A DNA stretch of 64,000 nt from Tsukamurella conjunctivitidis (GTDB lineage Bacteria; Actinomycetota; Actinomycetes; Mycobacteriales; Mycobacteriaceae), in NCBI RefSeq assembly GCF_007858475.1, contig NZ_VIGX01000001.1:558001-622000 (forward strand). Reading direction: 5' to 3'. The position numbers and the translations under genes were made by a program. The notes under the pieces are model-generated. The model worked only from the letters and a program-made list of their open reading frames with translations. It made no database searches and was not told the origin of the DNA. Below, piece by piece: positions 51,834-57,063 of the stretch. Within the stretch, counting starts at the first letter, position 1; each line of letters begins with the position of its first letter.

Positions 51834-52076
51834 TCAGGCCGTCGCGGAGGCGCGGCCGAACAGCAGATAGGCCGCGGGCAGCACGCCCGCGGAGGTGACC
51901 ACGCCGAGGCCGAGGCCCCAGAGCTTCTTGGGGCCGCGGACCTCGGCGTCGTCGCGTCCGGCCAGGTCGGCAAGGGCCCAGGCCCGCAGTCCCGCGTCGA
52001 CGGCCGCGGTCGCGACGATCGTCGTCTTCGCGCGGGGCGAGAGCTCGCCCCAGCCGACCTTGTTCCTCGGGCTCAT
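51834..52076 (-). CDS. Small membrane protein coupled to the HerA-like ATPase
   Basis: This 80-residue protein begins SPRNKVGWGELSPRAKTTIVATAAVDAGLRAWALADL and has two hydrophobic stretches, the second (LWGLGLGVVTSAGVLPAAYLLFGR) like the PLDc_N-type small membrane proteins of actinobacteria (short linker RDDAEVRGPKK between). Function unknown. The ATG overlaps the end of the upstream ATPase gene by four bases (ATGA), so it belongs to the same operon even though such proteins are often found alone. Confidence 0.68.
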   Translation of the reverse strand: MSPRNKVGWGELSPRAKTTIVATAAVDAGLRAWALADLAGRDDAEVRGPKKLWGLGLGVVTSAGVLPAAYLLFGRASATA

Positions 52077-55000
52077 GTCGTGCTCCTCCGTGCGATGGTG
52101 AGGACCTCGTCCTCCGTGGGCGGGCTGGCGGGGTGGTGGCTCAGGCACATCGGCGAGTGCAGGCGGACCGTCGCCGCGCCCGACCCCAGGTAGAAGTCGC
52201 CGGCGCCCAGCCCGCCGATCCCGTCGAGCCGACCGCCGCGCGCGGCGGCCAGGTCTTTGGCGGCCTGGATCTGCACGGGCGCGTTGAGCTTGCCGTAGAA
52301 GTGCGTCGCGCTGTTGCCGACGATCTTGTCGTGCAGGCCCTTCGGCGCCTGCGTCGCGAAGACCAGCCCCAGCCCGTACTTGCGGGCCTGCGAGGCGAGC
52401 AGGAGCGTCGACTCGGTGGAGGGTTTCACCGCGCCCGAGGGCGCGATCTGCTGGGCCTCGTCCATCACCAGCAGGGCGCCCAGCGGCGTCTCGCCCGCGG
52501 GGTGACGCTTGACCCACGAGAACAGCGCGAGTTGCAGCTGCGCGACGAAGGTCTGCCGCTGCGTCTCGTCGGGCAGGCCGATGAGGCTGATCACCGAGAC
52601 CCGGGCGCGCTTGCCGTCCGCCGGGGTTAGCAGCGTCGCGGGGTCGACCGCCTCGCCCCGGCCGCCGAGCAGCGGATTGTTGATCAGCGCGGCCTGGAGG
52701 TTCGCCGCCAGCTCGGGCGACAGCTTGTCGGCGCTGCCGAGGCTGCTGCGCGTCGAATCCCACTCGGCGAGGAAGTCGGCGAAGCCGCGGATGTCCGCGC
52801 GGCCCACCTGGCGACCGTAGGCGTCGAGCGCCTCCCGCAGGATCGCGCGCTGCTGCTCGCGGCGCGCTCCGCCCACGCCGACGTGCTGCTCCAGCGCGCT
52901 CGCGCTCGCCTCGACGGCCATCGCGAAGCCCTCGCGCGCCTCCTGCGCCTCCAGGCCCTCGCCGTCCATGCCCGTCCGCAGCGCCGCGAAGTCCGGGATC
53001 GGTTGCAGCACCAGGGGTCGCGCGGATGCGCGGTTGGGCGTCCACACCACCACGTCCGTGTCGGCGAGGTACGTGCGCGCCCGCTCGGCGTCGCCCTCCC
53101 ACCAGCCCGACGGCGCCTCCGGCCATGCCTCGCCGAGCCGGGAGAGGTCGTTGTTGGGGTCGAGCACGATCGCGGAGACGCCGCGCAGTGCGCACTCCTC
53201 GATGAGCCGGCGGATCAGCACCGTCTTACCCGAGCCGGAACCGGCGAAGATCGCGGTGTGCTTACGCAGCTCGACGGGGTCCACGGTGACGGGCGCACGG
53301 TCCGGCCCGAGGCCGACGACGACGGCACCGTCGCCCGACGGTGCGGCAGCGGGCGGTGCCGGTGCCGGTCGTGGCACGGGCGGCCCGCCGAACATGACGT
53401 CGGCGACGGAGCTCGACAGCCCGCCGACGCGGCCCACGGCGTCGCCGGGGATGAGGCCGCGCGCGCGCCGCGAGGCCGGTGCGGGCCGGTCGGCCGGCGC
53501 GTGATCGAGTCCGGCGAACATCCGCAGACCGTGCGCGGGACGGCGTGCCGTCAGCCACTCGTCGAGACCGTCGGGGGAGTTCGCGATGATGTGTCCGAGC
53601 GCGTCGAGCGTGGCGAGATCGGCCTCGTCGAGCGGGAGCAGTTCGGCCCCGCGCTCGACGGCGTCGGCGATCACCGACGACGCCTTCGGGCTGGTGGGCC
53701 AGGGCGTGGAACGCAGCAGGAAGAGCTTGCGGCGGTCCATCCCCGCGGCCACGCCGGCCGCGGTCGCCGCGCTCTGCACGCGGTTCGTGGTCGCGACGGC
53801 GTTGGACGCCGGGATCGCGCGGAAGGCCCAGTGCTGCTCGTCCTCGACGCGGCCGGGCAGCCGGCGCCGCAGCCGGCCGTCGAGCTGCTTGTTGCCGCGC
53901 TCGATCTGGAAGCCGTCGCCGCCGTCCTCGCGGGTCCACGCCCGCAGGCCGGCCTCGATCAGCGCGCCCATCCGCTTGTCCGCGGCGACCTGATCGGTCG
54001 CGATATCGCCGACCCGGGCGCGGATCCGCAGCGCGTCGAACTGCTCGTCGATGCGGGCGAGCGCCTCGGCGGGGGTGGTCTCCGGCAGCGCGGGCTGCTC
54101 GGGTGCCGGGGCGGGCGCCGCGGCCGGGGCCGCGGCGGAGACGGTGCGCGGCGCGTCCCCGTCGAACGACCCGAAGGACGCGAGCTCGAAGTCCGTGCGG
54201 GTGGTGACGCACGCCCGGATGTGCGCGTCGACCTTGGTGAGCAGGTCGCGTGGGGTGTGGTGCACCGCGGAGGCGAAGGCCTCGGGCGCGACCGGCCACG
54301 TGGGATGCGGCGGCGCGAACTCCTTCGCGCGGTACGCCGCGGTCAGCCTCCGCTCGACGATGGCGCGGGCGATGGCGCCGTCGGGCAGCGACTTCAGCGG
54401 GCCGACGACGCGGAACCGCGCGGCGACCGAGGCGGTGGCGCGGCCGGCGAGCGTCTCCCAGGCCGTCGGGAGCATGCAGGCGACGGTCACCGTGCGGTAG
54501 AGGCCCTGCCGCAGCGACATGAGGCCGTGGCCGACCTGCTCGATGACCTCGCTCTCCGCGGCGTCGGGCGCGGTGAGGGTCGCCGCGGACTGCGCGAGCA
54601 GGGTGTCGATCTGGTCGACGGCGAAGACCGTCGCGGCGGTCTCGGCCATGAACGCCGAGATCGCGCGCACCGTCTCCACGGCGGGGAAGCCGTGCGCGGG
54701 CAGGCCCCAGTGCAGTCGCTCGGCAGCGGTCTCCTCGACCTCGATGTCCTCGAGGAAGGCGGACCCGAGGTCGGCGAGCCGGCTGTCGGGGGAGCCGAGC
54801 AGCACCAGCGCGCGCAGCACGCCGTGGTACTGCCGCACCTGCGGGCGGCGCTTGCTCATGGCCGCGACCAGCGCGTCCAGGCCCTCGGGGGTGGGCACCG
54901 CGTCGCCGGAGAACTCGCGGCGGTGTGCGCGGGAGAGGCCGACCTCGTCCGAGAGCAGCCACAGCAGCTGGGCCAGCTGGGTCTCGTGATCGCGCGCGGG

Positions 55001-55351
55001 CCGCAGCAACGAGCTGCGCAGCGAGGTGAGCGCCGCGCGCCAGAAGTCCGTGGCGTCCAGGAGTTCCAGCAGCACGAAGTAGTGGCCCGCCGCCTGCACC
55101 TCGGACCGGAACCGGGTGAGCAGGTGGGTCTTGCCGGTGCCCGCGTTGCCGGTGATGACCAGGCCGGTGGGGGAGGCACCGGTCGACGCGACGGCGTCGC
55201 CGAGGGCGTCCTCCAGATCCTCCCAGACGTCGGTGTGCAGGCCGTCGACGTGCGTGTCCTCCGACGCCGCGTCCCACACCTCCTCGTACGTGGGTGCCCA
55301 GCTCAGGCGGACGGAACGCAGCGCGGTGCGCTGCACATCGGAGAGCGTCAT
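52073..55351 (-). CDS. Large ATPase with two P-loop modules (AAA-like plus HerA-like)
   Basis: This 1092-residue protein has two nucleotide sites. The N-terminal AAA-like module has Walker A GNAGTGKTHLL at 68-75 and a Walker B-like FAVDQID near 243-249. A middle part (about 400-690) includes an Ala/Pro linker and a domain without known motifs. The C-terminal HerA/FtsK-like module has Walker A GSGSGKTVLIRRL near 702-709, LDPNNDLSRLG and Walker B LLVMDEAQQ near 960-966. Such ATPases move or unwind DNA, often with a nuclease partner. It is coupled by ATGA overlaps to a winged-helix gene before it and a small membrane gene after it. The role is unknown; defence or DNA repair are possible. Confidence 0.85.
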   Translation of the reverse strand: MTLSDVQRTALRSVRLSWAPTYEEVWDAASEDTHVDGLHTDVWEDLEDALGDAVASTGASPTGLVITGNAGTGKTHLLTRFRSEVQAAGHYFVLLELLDATDFWRAALTSLRSSLLRPARDHETQLAQLLWLLSDEVGLSRAHRREFSGDAVPTPEGLDALVAAMSKRRPQVRQYHGVLRALVLLGSPDSRLADLGSAFLEDIEVEETAAERLHWGLPAHGFPAVETVRAISAFMAETAATVFAVDQIDTLLAQSAATLTAPDAAESEVIEQVGHGLMSLRQGLYRTVTVACMLPTAWETLAGRATASVAARFRVVGPLKSLPDGAIARAIVERRLTAAYRAKEFAPPHPTWPVAPEAFASAVHHTPRDLLTKVDAHIRACVTTRTDFELASFGSFDGDAPRTVSAAAPAAAPAPAPEQPALPETTPAEALARIDEQFDALRIRARVGDIATDQVAADKRMGALIEAGLRAWTREDGGDGFQIERGNKQLDGRLRRRLPGRVEDEQHWAFRAIPASNAVATTNRVQSAATAAGVAAGMDRRKLFLLRSTPWPTSPKASSVIADAVERGAELLPLDEADLATLDALGHIIANSPDGLDEWLTARRPAHGLRMFAGLDHAPADRPAPASRRARGLIPGDAVGRVGGLSSSVADVMFGGPPVPRPAPAPPAAAPSGDGAVVVGLGPDRAPVTVDPVELRKHTAIFAGSGSGKTVLIRRLIEECALRGVSAIVLDPNNDLSRLGEAWPEAPSGWWEGDAERARTYLADTDVVVWTPNRASARPLVLQPIPDFAALRTGMDGEGLEAQEAREGFAMAVEASASALEQHVGVGGARREQQRAILREALDAYGRQVGRADIRGFADFLAEWDSTRSSLGSADKLSPELAANLQAALINNPLLGGRGEAVDPATLLTPADGKRARVSVISLIGLPDETQRQTFVAQLQLALFSWVKRHPAGETPLGALLVMDEAQQIAPSGAVKPSTESTLLLASQARKYGLGLVFATQAPKGLHDKIVGNSATHFYGKLNAPVQIQAAKDLAAARGGRLDGIGGLGAGDFYLGSGAATVRLHSPMCLSHHPASPPTEDEVLTIARRSTT

Positions 55352-56019
55352 CGAGTGATCCGTATCGCGTGCAGGGGGCGACCGCCGAGCTGCAGCGCAG
55401 CGGCGTGATCGTCCGGGGTGAGGGCTTTGAGATTGTCCTCGGCGACGATGTGCACGCGGGGTTCGGGGTAGAGGGCGCGCAGGCCCTCGTCGACGACGGT
55501 GCGCGGCACGCCGGGAAGTGCGGCGCGCAGATCGCGCAGTGCCACCCACGCGCCGGGCGCCGCGATCCGGGCGTACGCCGCGCGGAGCTGCGCGGCCGGC
55601 GGACCGTCGGGCGGGAGCGGACCGTCGGGCACGGGGGCCGGGGCCGACGGTGCCGGGCCGGCGGCGGGCGTGACCACCTCGCCGAGCGCGAGCGATTCGC
55701 GGCGCAGGTAGCGGCCGATCCCGGCGGCGAAGGTGAACAGGGCGCGCAGCTGCGGCGTCGCGCGCGGCGGGGGAGGGGATTCGAGCAGCGCGGCGGCGGC
55801 GGCCCAGCCGCGGTCGGTGAGCGAGAGCAGTAGCGTGCGGCGCTCCCCGACCTCGACGTCCAGGAGGCCCCGCTCGACCAGCCGCCGCCGCGACGGCGCC
55901 TCCAGCGCGGGGCCCAGCAGTTTGAGGTCGGGATTGCGCACCGGTTCCACCGCCGACGCGAGCACCAGCAGCACAGTCGATTCCGTGCCCGTGAGCCCCG
56001 CGATCGACTCGCCCATCAC
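55348..56019 (-). CDS. Winged-helix protein of the nuclease/ATPase operon
   Basis: This protein of about 223 residues has an N-terminal MarR-like winged helix (GTESTVLLVLASAVEPVRNPDLKLL then RRRLVERGLLDVEVGERRTLLLSLTDRG). A Pro/Ala linker near 125-140 leads to a second winged-helix-like part (LRAAYARIAAPGAWVALRDLRAALPGVPRTVVDEGLRALY). No effector domain is seen. It could be the DNA-binding adaptor or regulator of the system. The start is GTG 56019 or ATG 56016, both inside a 4-base overlap with the nuclease gene. The end overlaps the ATPase start (ATGA). Confidence 0.72.
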   Translation of the reverse strand: MMGESIAGLTGTESTVLLVLASAVEPVRNPDLKLLGPALEAPSRRRLVERGLLDVEVGERRTLLLSLTDRGWAAAAALLESPPPPRATPQLRALFTFAAGIGRYLRRESLALGEVVTPAAGPAPSAPAPVPDGPLPPDGPPAAQLRAAYARIAAPGAWVALRDLRAALPGVPRTVVDEGLRALYPEPRVHIVAEDNLKALTPDDHAAALQLGGRPLHAIRITR

Positions 56020-57050
56020 GCACCCCTCCCGTGGCCGGATCCCGTTGCAGTCACCAATGTACGGATGATCGCCAGAGATTCTGCGAGGTCACCCAGGATC
56101 CGCGCGTTGGTCAGCCGCAGCACCCGGAATCCGGCCAGCATGAGGTCGGCGTCGCGGCGCCGGTCGGCCTCGTACGCGTCGTTCGCGCGGTGGTCCGGCC
56201 CGTCGACTTCCACCACCAGGCGCGGTCGCGGGAACAGCAGGTCGACGCGGACCGGCCGGGCCAGCGGCCCCAGGTCGACGGCGTAGTTCCAGTGCCGCGC
56301 CGCGGCCCACGCCTGATCCACGAGCCCCCGCTCGAGGTGCTGCTCCGCCGCGCTCGCAGGGTGCGGCCTGCCGGCGACGGGCGGGAACGCGGGCAGCGGG
56401 TCGAGGCCGACGGTGAACTCCGACGGCTGCGGGCGCGGGTCGGGGATCGCGGGCGGACCGTCGACGGCGGGGAACCGGTCCAGCGGCGCCGCGCCCGGTC
56501 CGAGGAGCCAGACGGTGCCGTCGCCGCGTGCGAGCCATTGCGCCGCGGTGGCGAGGGCGTCGCCGAGGTGCGGGGCCAGCGGCCGGTCCACGTCGAGCGC
56601 GAGAGCGATCCCCGGAGCGTGGTAGCTGCGGGTCAGGACGTGCTCGAGGGCGCCACGACGGTCGGCCGCGGGCAGGTCGGCGAAGCCGGTCATCGCCTCG
56701 GGTCGCAGCGCCGCGGTGGCGAGCGCGCCCAGCGCTGTGCCGATGCCGGGGGTGCCGCCGTGGCGCTGCGCGAGCTCGTGGGCGGTGGTGCGGCCGGGGG
56801 TCCCGCCGGGGCCGGGGGTGAGGGCGGGGTCGGGCAGCCACGCCGGGAAGACCTCCAGTGCGACCGCGACCGCCCGGGTCAGCACGTCGTCGATGATCGC
56901 GCCGGGGGAGGAGGGGAGCGGCAGCGTCAGGCCCGGGAAGACCACGACGGGGTCCTGCGGTCCCCGCCGCGCGGCGGCGGAGGCGAGCGCGGCGGCGGAG
57001 GTGCCCCGCAGTCGCGCGACGCCGCCCACGGGCAGATCGGAGAGCTGCAC
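56016..57050 (-). CDS. DUF559-type endonuclease (PD-(D/E)XK-like C-terminus)
   Basis: This 344-residue protein has a C-terminal nuclease-like domain of the DUF559/Vsr-type: RVDLLFPRPRLVVEVDGPDHR with Asp270 and the Glu281-Val-Asp283 pair, then a helix and the strand FRVLRLTNARIL. The N-terminal ~230 residues are Pro/Ala-rich without a known fold. The start is GTG at 57050 because TAACTT (57063 to 57058) lies seven bases upstream, a leaderless promoter for the whole operon; an in-frame open stretch to 57197 has no support. It is the first gene of a four-gene unit. The nuclease target is unknown. Confidence 0.75.
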   Translation of the reverse strand: MQLSDLPVGGVARLRGTSAAALASAAARRGPQDPVVVFPGLTLPLPSSPGAIIDDVLTRAVAVALEVFPAWLPDPALTPGPGGTPGRTTAHELAQRHGGTPGIGTALGALATAALRPEAMTGFADLPAADRRGALEHVLTRSYHAPGIALALDVDRPLAPHLGDALATAAQWLARGDGTVWLLGPGAAPLDRFPAVDGPPAIPDPRPQPSEFTVGLDPLPAFPPVAGRPHPASAAEQHLERGLVDQAWAAARHWNYAVDLGPLARPVRVDLLFPRPRLVVEVDGPDHRANDAYEADRRRDADLMLAGFRVLRLTNARILGDLAESLAIIRTLVTATGSGHGRGA

Positions 57051-57063
57051 GAAAATGAAGTTA
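57051..57063 (-). promoter_or_regulatory. Leaderless promoter of the nuclease/ATPase operon
   Basis: TAACTT reads on the minus strand from 57063 to 57058, followed by seven bases and GTG at 57050. Confidence 0.5.

Follow-up and report, generated by a model that had tools for sequence, protein, structure and literature searches.

The closest described relatives, in domain content, of the locus considered here are the Orc/CDC6-type HerA/FtsK capture systems, a class that was predicted by comparative genomics (PMC10853773). In the available part of that source they combine a HerA/FtsK motor, an Orc-like AAA ATPase, an inactive restriction endonuclease (REase) inserted between the AAA core and the C-terminal winged helix, an active REase of one of two named families and the winged helix itself, with the domains occurring in single or multiple polypeptides; its main text does not mention DUF559. 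For the DUF4297-HerA system, experiments showed that a nuclease stacked on the HerA ring cleaves double-stranded DNA and stops phage (PMC11291478, available part). Here we analyze an operon in 64,000 nucleotides of the Tsukamurella conjunctivitidis genome (contig NZ_VIGX01000001.1, positions 558,001 to 622,000; hereafter the window), which is encoded on the minus strand, flanked by rpsQ and rplN, and comprises genes for a DUF559 nuclease (g1), a winged-helix protein (g2), a fusion of an AAA ATPase with a HerA/FtsK motor (g3) and a small, putative membrane protein (g4). The first three genes constitute a rare set, absent by name from the catalogues that we searched, which probably captures and destroys invading DNA. 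We lean, by a little, towards the view that the operon is a compact anti-invader DNA-capture machine and a variant of the Orc/CDC6-type systems, and we hold more firmly that it works like such a system than that it is a member of the class. The genes and the start of the operon, in positions of the window, are:

56016-57050, minus strand: g1, DUF559 nuclease of 344 residues with a GTG start
55348-56019, minus strand: g2, 223 residues, with two winged-helix units predicted by the structural model
52073-55351, minus strand: g3, 1092-residue fusion of an AAA ATPase, an alpha/beta domain, a low-confidence linker and a HerA/FtsK motor
51834-52076, minus strand: g4, 80 residues, a neighbor and not a conserved part of the set
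57058-57063, minus strand: hexamer TAACTT, resembling a -10 element, at -13 to -8 of the g1 GTG, a putative leaderless promoter

As far as the available part of PMC10853773 describes the class, several features of the locus recall it: the motor of g3 has a sensor glutamine and an arginine finger before strand 4, g2 supplies the winged-helix component, and an AAA ATPase and a restriction-type nuclease are encoded in one operon. It differs in that an AAA half with a glutamine in its Walker B motif is fused to the motor, and in that the DUF559 nuclease is a separate gene, missing in 6 of 29 genomes. A previous examination of this DNA without database searches, hereafter the sequence-only reading, could not name the set; the catalogues indeed hold no named match for it, although its domain list fits the predicted class. 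Pfam, NCBIfam, PADLOC and PHROGs gave matches at the level of domains only, and the literature searched (largely without subscription journals and preprints) contained neither a description of the g1-g2-g3 set nor a paper linking DUF559 with anti-phage activity. Nothing like the set is named in the available parts of PMC12322248 or PMC10952713, and a related composite system, BRC, has other partners (PMC12839542, available part).

In the mechanism that we propose, g3 would form a ring, the HerA/FtsK half of which pumps double-stranded DNA using ATP. The AAA half would bind ATP and hydrolyze it slowly or not at all, serving as a clamp or switch for sensing, or loading on, the target DNA or protein; g2 would bring the complex to its target, either DNA or a protein of a phage or plasmid, and g1 would cut the DNA delivered by the motor. 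Ring, complex formation, translocation, cleavage and foreign DNA as the target are all predictions; what can be seen directly are the gene order, overlaps, co-occurrence, domain identities, motif conservation and purifying selection presented below.

The conserved unit and its distribution

Neighboring genes overlap by four bases at every junction (g1/g2, g2/g3 and g3/g4), as the sequence-only reading had described for its four open reading frames, and a codon-usage gene caller trained on the window, blind to the coordinates, returned exactly the same four genes. A g3 gene that is not decayed is found in 29 genomes: 15 of Tsukamurella and 14 others, the latter being five Rhodococcus/Rhodococcoides, Catellatospora, Nonomuraea, Methylobacterium aquaticum and the genomes G020, G033, G047, G050, G060 and G134. 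This count excludes G025, with a decayed g3, and includes both Tsukamurella sp. PLM1 (G014/L050) and G002 (L039), whose g1 lies on another contig; the T. tyrosinosolvens record L055, which looks like G004, is not counted apart. In PLM1 (10001-13248 of L050) g3 falls in several frames, through either sequencing error or decay. In all 29 genomes g2 (cut by the contig end in G002) is the immediate neighbor of g3, and the two overlap by four bases at 27 of 32 measured loci, a number that includes loci from the same genome. The nuclease gene is present in 23 of the 29, namely in 11 of 15 Tsukamurella (not G008, G009, G012 and G013) and 12 of the 14 others (not G050 and G134). The grouping of g1, g2 and g3 thus recurs outside Tsukamurella, as the sequence-only reading required of it.

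Things stand otherwise with g4. Of 16 Tsukamurella genomes, 5 have it downstream of g3, by overlap in four and after an extra gene of 311 residues at locus L041. Relatives of g4 occur in nine other-genus genomes, eight of them without g3; its Pfam match to DUF5652 (E 0.018) is below the cut-off and PADLOC holds nothing for it. Being sporadic, and having relatives in genomes without g3, g4 is therefore a neighbor, and we rejected a four-gene system: the conserved unit is g1-g2-g3, with g4 as a hitchhiker. What remains of the four-gene set put forward earlier is a single operon for a DUF559 nuclease, a winged-helix protein and a dual-P-loop HerA-like ATPase.

A wider sample comprised 296 genomes of actinobacteria. 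In it, the g3 profile found its target in at least four, and the g2 profile found at least the same four and a borderline candidate in G097 (8e-5, with a stop inside); only 2 and 9 candidates were scored per genome, which makes these counts lower bounds. A split g3 was not found by a profile of the AAA and middle parts, which gave only full g3 loci, in three of 246 genomes (at most five candidates scored per genome). At one locus (L054, CAJCHX010000727.1) the operon stands on a contig titled Acidobacteriaceae, the genome of which groups with Tsukamurella (G006) and is possibly a misnamed metagenome bin.

The sequence-only reading had also proposed a leaderless promoter for g1. Of the 12 Tsukamurella loci with g1, 11 have the pattern TANNNT with its first base at -13 or -12 relative to the start codon of g1, versus 65 of 13057 ATG/GTG triplets (0.5%) at the same spacing in nine of these loci. 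The upstream sequences that carry it are of several unlike types, and the sole locus without it, L054, is the most divergent. At the level of sequence, a leaderless start of g1 is supported by this comparison.

Domains of the three proteins

The domains of g3 and g1 map to the following positions of the window:

54200-55234, minus strand: AAA domain of g3 (residues 40-384), with Walker A GxxGxGKTH and Walker B D-Q
53507-54079, minus strand: middle alpha/beta domain of g3 (residues 425-615), a low-confidence model with strands at 508-512, 542-546 and 570-572
52082-53323, minus strand: HerA/FtsK-type motor of g3 (residues 677-1090), with Walker A GSGSGKT, Walker B DEAQ, R990 and sensor Q1001
56061-56246, minus strand: DUF559 nuclease domain of g1 (residues 269-330; Pfam 5.9e-9)

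Pfam recognizes AAA_22 in the N-terminal part of g3 (4.3e-11) and DUF87/HerA in its C-terminal part (3.1e-12), the two P-loops falling at residues 68-75 and 704-710. No Pfam match up to E 10 is listed for residues 425-615, and the linker just before the motor (residues 616-674) is modeled with a predicted local distance difference test score (pLDDT) below 50. A table of motifs was prepared from 28 g3 rows (without L050 and L089; two genomes are represented twice, by L044 and L045 and by L081 and L083). All 28 rows have D-Q-[IL]-D as the Walker B of the AAA half, glutamine replacing the catalytic glutamate of AAA ATPases, with the Walker A GxxGxGKTH intact, and in the motor half D-E-A-Q, R990 and the sensor Q1001 are kept. 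Replacement of the Walker-B glutamate by glutamine is the usual laboratory change for blocking hydrolysis and trapping AAA proteins. Because this glutamate is replaced here, the AAA half is likely to hydrolyze little or no ATP; we infer that it would bind ATP as a switch or clamp, with the motor half doing the work. The operon therefore offers a natural test case for the effect of a glutamine-substituted Walker B.

Models of AAA_16 match the AAA half in 18 of 18 members and those of AAA_22 in 12 of 18, with weak matches also to nSTAND and NACHT. In a VIA-align fold search with g3, the best 50 matches all fell on the motor, whose solved relatives include HerA-NurA (9x1m, 4d2i), the C-domain of DndH (a top match), VirB4 and TrwB. 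The motor half also matches two PHROGs families, one of terminases (8.6e-15) and one Zot-like (3.1e-8); we take both matches as a reflection of the shared P-loop motor fold.

For g1, DUF559 and MTES_1575 are the only Pfam matches up to E 1, and none is listed for residues 1-220. Its family profile recovered the endonuclease-like protein 3hrl from the PDB (1e-11), and D270, E281, D283, H287, D296, R299 and D300 are invariant in 18 of 18 rows, including the two residues (D270 and E281) that had been singled out from the single sequence.

In the case of g2, there is no Pfam match up to E 1 and none in PADLOC. Its AlphaFold model (pLDDT 78; predicted template modeling score 0.52) contains two winged-helix units, at about residues 11-67 and 141-221. 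The first resembles MarR/RosR structures by fold match to the model; the second was recognized from the succession of helices and strands, no fold match covering that stretch. The model thus supports g2 as a winged-helix protein. Calmodulin and myosin light chains, which made up most of the best 60 of 159 PDB matches of the g2 profile (E 0.003-0.04), were taken as chance.

Selection without the nuclease and the nature of the machine

Several observations weigh against reading the operon as an anti-invader machine of the Orc/CDC6 type. Of the five defining features of the class, going by the available part of its source, the motor and the winged helix are present, with the AAA half, the middle domain of g3 and g1 as candidates for the other three, and the N-terminal g3 profile recovered proteasomal AAA subunits first from the PDB (E 0.003), with no Orc/Cdc6 protein among the best 60 of 64 matches and the related DnaA at E 0.74 only. 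Moreover, g2-g3 is kept without g1 in 6 of the 29 genomes. Within Tsukamurella the set has come close to fixation, with g3 in 15 of 16 genomes and at one site, unlike most defense genes; no relative was found in the phages or viral contigs searched, and only one on a true plasmid. Finally, no known defense gene was detected by Pfam among 20 neighbors at seven loci outside Rhodococcus, a VapBC pair in T. tyrosinosolvens being the one exception noted beside a copy.

The absence of g1 was followed on a g3 tree of 25 rows (without L039, L048, L049, L050 and L089). The g1-less state needs 5 changes on this tree, at least 4 of them forced by well-supported branches, with several long branches and deep joins that are unsure. 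When the labels were shuffled, the mean was 5.5 changes and 185 of 500 shuffles needed as few, so the state shows no excess of clustering. Each change could be a gain or a loss. In G013 a remnant of 55 bases, the end of the g1 region adjoining g2, can still be recognized (85% identical) next to unrelated sequence, and g1 appears to have been lost there.

We then compared pairwise ratios of nonsynonymous to synonymous substitution rates (dN/dS) in 7 of the 11 g1-bearing Tsukamurella genomes plus L055 and in all 4 g1-less ones, G014/L050 being left out. In the g1-less genomes, where g2-g3 is open, values were 0.10-0.27 for g3 and 0.12-0.34 for g2 (6 pairs), and in the g1-bearing genomes 0.08-0.21 and 0.12-0.33 (28 pairs). 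Over eight genomes the medians were 0.33 for g1, 0.23 for g2 and 0.15 for g3; seven further genes in the region ranged from 0.04 to 0.24 (7 or 8 genomes). Because dN/dS is low in g1-less genomes, g2-g3 is maintained by purifying selection without g1, which is itself the fastest evolving of the three. That several lineages do without the nuclease while its partners stay under purifying selection is a puzzle.

One alternative is that the operon is a resident DNA-maintenance machine, in which g2-g3 would clamp and move chromosomal DNA in end processing, segregation or repair. Its nuclease g1 would then process DNA but be dispensable, and the whole would be a counterpart of HerA-NurA made of other parts. 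This would fit its near fixation in Tsukamurella, a selection on g3 as strong as that on the neighboring DEAD-box helicase gene (median dN/dS 0.148 versus 0.152), the purifying selection seen between the g1-less sisters G009 and TY48 (0.10 for g3 and 0.12 for g2), and the place of HerA-NurA among the best solved relatives of the motor. The copies in Rhodococcus also lie beside a gene that we take, from its look, to be dinB. However, most relatives lack g3, which outside Tsukamurella occurs in 6 of 45 genomes of one set (one decayed) and in 3 of 295 others of the actinobacterial sample; the Methylobacterium aquaticum copy is carried on a 1.57-Mb plasmid typed as mobilizable, and several lineages dispense with g1. 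The likeness to the HerA-NurA repair complex is confined to the fold of the motor and the presence of a nuclease partner: g1 is a DUF559 protein and not NurA, the AAA domain and g2 are additional, and no HAS-barrel is among the best 25 of the 34 Pfam matches of g3 (those ranked below them have E above 0.088). Assignment to HerA-NurA, which had been named as an outcome that would dissolve the novelty of the set, is thus not borne out. On balance we consider a maintenance role unlikely, if deserving of serious attention.

A second alternative, which we advance as a speculation with slightly less behind it, is that g2-g3 alone is a complete exclusion machine. A pump with an AAA ring fixed in the ATP-bound state would capture foreign DNA and silence, unload or sequester it uncut, and the DUF559 nuclease would be an exchangeable add-on that is gained and lost.

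Under the reading that we favor, a DNA-capture machine directed at invaders, the operon, with three genes or in some lineages two, offers a compact and clearly delimited candidate for a class known from the available literature as a prediction; its motor and AAA switch are parts of a single protein. Since copies with and without the nuclease occur in nature, one could ask directly whether motors of this kind must cut DNA in order to exclude it.

Genomic site, neighbors and catalogued systems

The genes rpsQ and rplN flank g3 on one contig in 13 of 15 Tsukamurella genomes; G002 has a fitting arrangement on two contigs and G006 is undecided. The same junction holds the set in G020, of another genus, and a decayed g3 with several stops in G025 (8010-10535 of L088; junction of about 42 kb), and in G033 the set lies beside rpsH. 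In G007, a Tsukamurella without g3, other genes fill the junction. Among 22 other-genus genomes of the family, rpsQ and rplN are contiguous (<1 kb) in 7, 1.8-91 kb apart in 12, split in 1 and on two contigs in 2; g1-g3 were absent from the seven junctions whose full content was read, that of G007 and those of six other-genus genomes. Copies in Rhodococcus, Catellatospora, Nonomuraea and Methylobacterium are at other sites. The rpsQ-rplN interval is a permissive junction, and it supports neither a core function nor a defense island. The suggestion, made from the window, that this location could mean a stable core function finds little support: the junction is open in 12 of the 22 other-genus genomes and copies occur elsewhere, and we dropped location as proof of such a function. 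The genus nonetheless appears to keep a likely defense module within a ribosomal gene region.

An argument from a defense island fares no better. The 20 neighbors scanned with Pfam are enzymes, sensors, regulators, ribosomal S8, a subtilase, SpoIIM, two DUFs, Trypco1 and WD40 proteins and two without a match. Because known defense genes are lacking among them, the case for defense rests on domain logic and not on an island. The same scan bears on the possibility that a conjugative or integrative element left the operon behind or carries it as cargo, with the motor as the coupling or segregation ATPase of that element. The Pfam match of g3 to TrwB_AAD_bind (3.5e-6), the structural matches to VirB4 and TrwB and the different sites in different families would agree with this; yet 0 of the 20 neighbors match a relaxase, integrase or secretion family, no relatives were found in the phages and viral contigs searched, and one site is held throughout Tsukamurella where contigs allow a view, which together make such an origin improbable.

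It is more improbable still that the operon is a catalogued system such as MADS, DndFGH, SIR2-HerA or DUF4297-HerA, even though the PADLOC mad8 model (PDLC04140) matches the C-terminal half of g3 at 1.4e-22, PADLOC HerA models do so at 5e-8 and weaker, and the DndH C-domain is a top structural match. The mad8 model is unspecific, matching in all 246 actinobacterial genomes and all 14 control genomes searched, and cannot serve alone as a MADS marker; we rejected MADS, as only mad8 was matched, in g3, with no Mad1-Mad7. PADLOC has nothing for g2 or g4, and for g1 only weak matches to DpdF (4.8e-4) and mREase_II (7.7e-4). Unlike DndFGH, the locus has no REase-HerA fusion, its nuclease being a separate gene, and two winged helices in g2 versus three in DndG; DndF is matched at E 0.1 only, and DndG and DndH are not among the PADLOC matches listed. 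DUF4297-HerA and SIR2-HerA are two-component systems with no winged-helix gene (PMC11291478, available part), and g1, g2 and g4 have no DUF4297 or SIR2 match. Taken together, what the sequence-only reading observed is confirmed, and its interpretation is supported in part.

Some copies have neighbors of separate interest. In T. tyrosinosolvens, genes for a PIN-domain protein and a VapB-type antitoxin (VapBC) adjoin g1 within the rpsQ-rplN junction (5547-6169 of L055), and L089 has the same layout. The L055 record (NZ_LR134464.1, 172913-192173) is labelled as a plasmid, carries S10/spc ribosomal genes and is probably a chromosome fragment. In G050 (L079, 11694-16068), g2-g3 adjoins a divergent gene for a Trypco1-domain protein and a large WD40-repeat gene; pairs of the Trypco1/WD40 type are linked with actinobacterial conflict systems.

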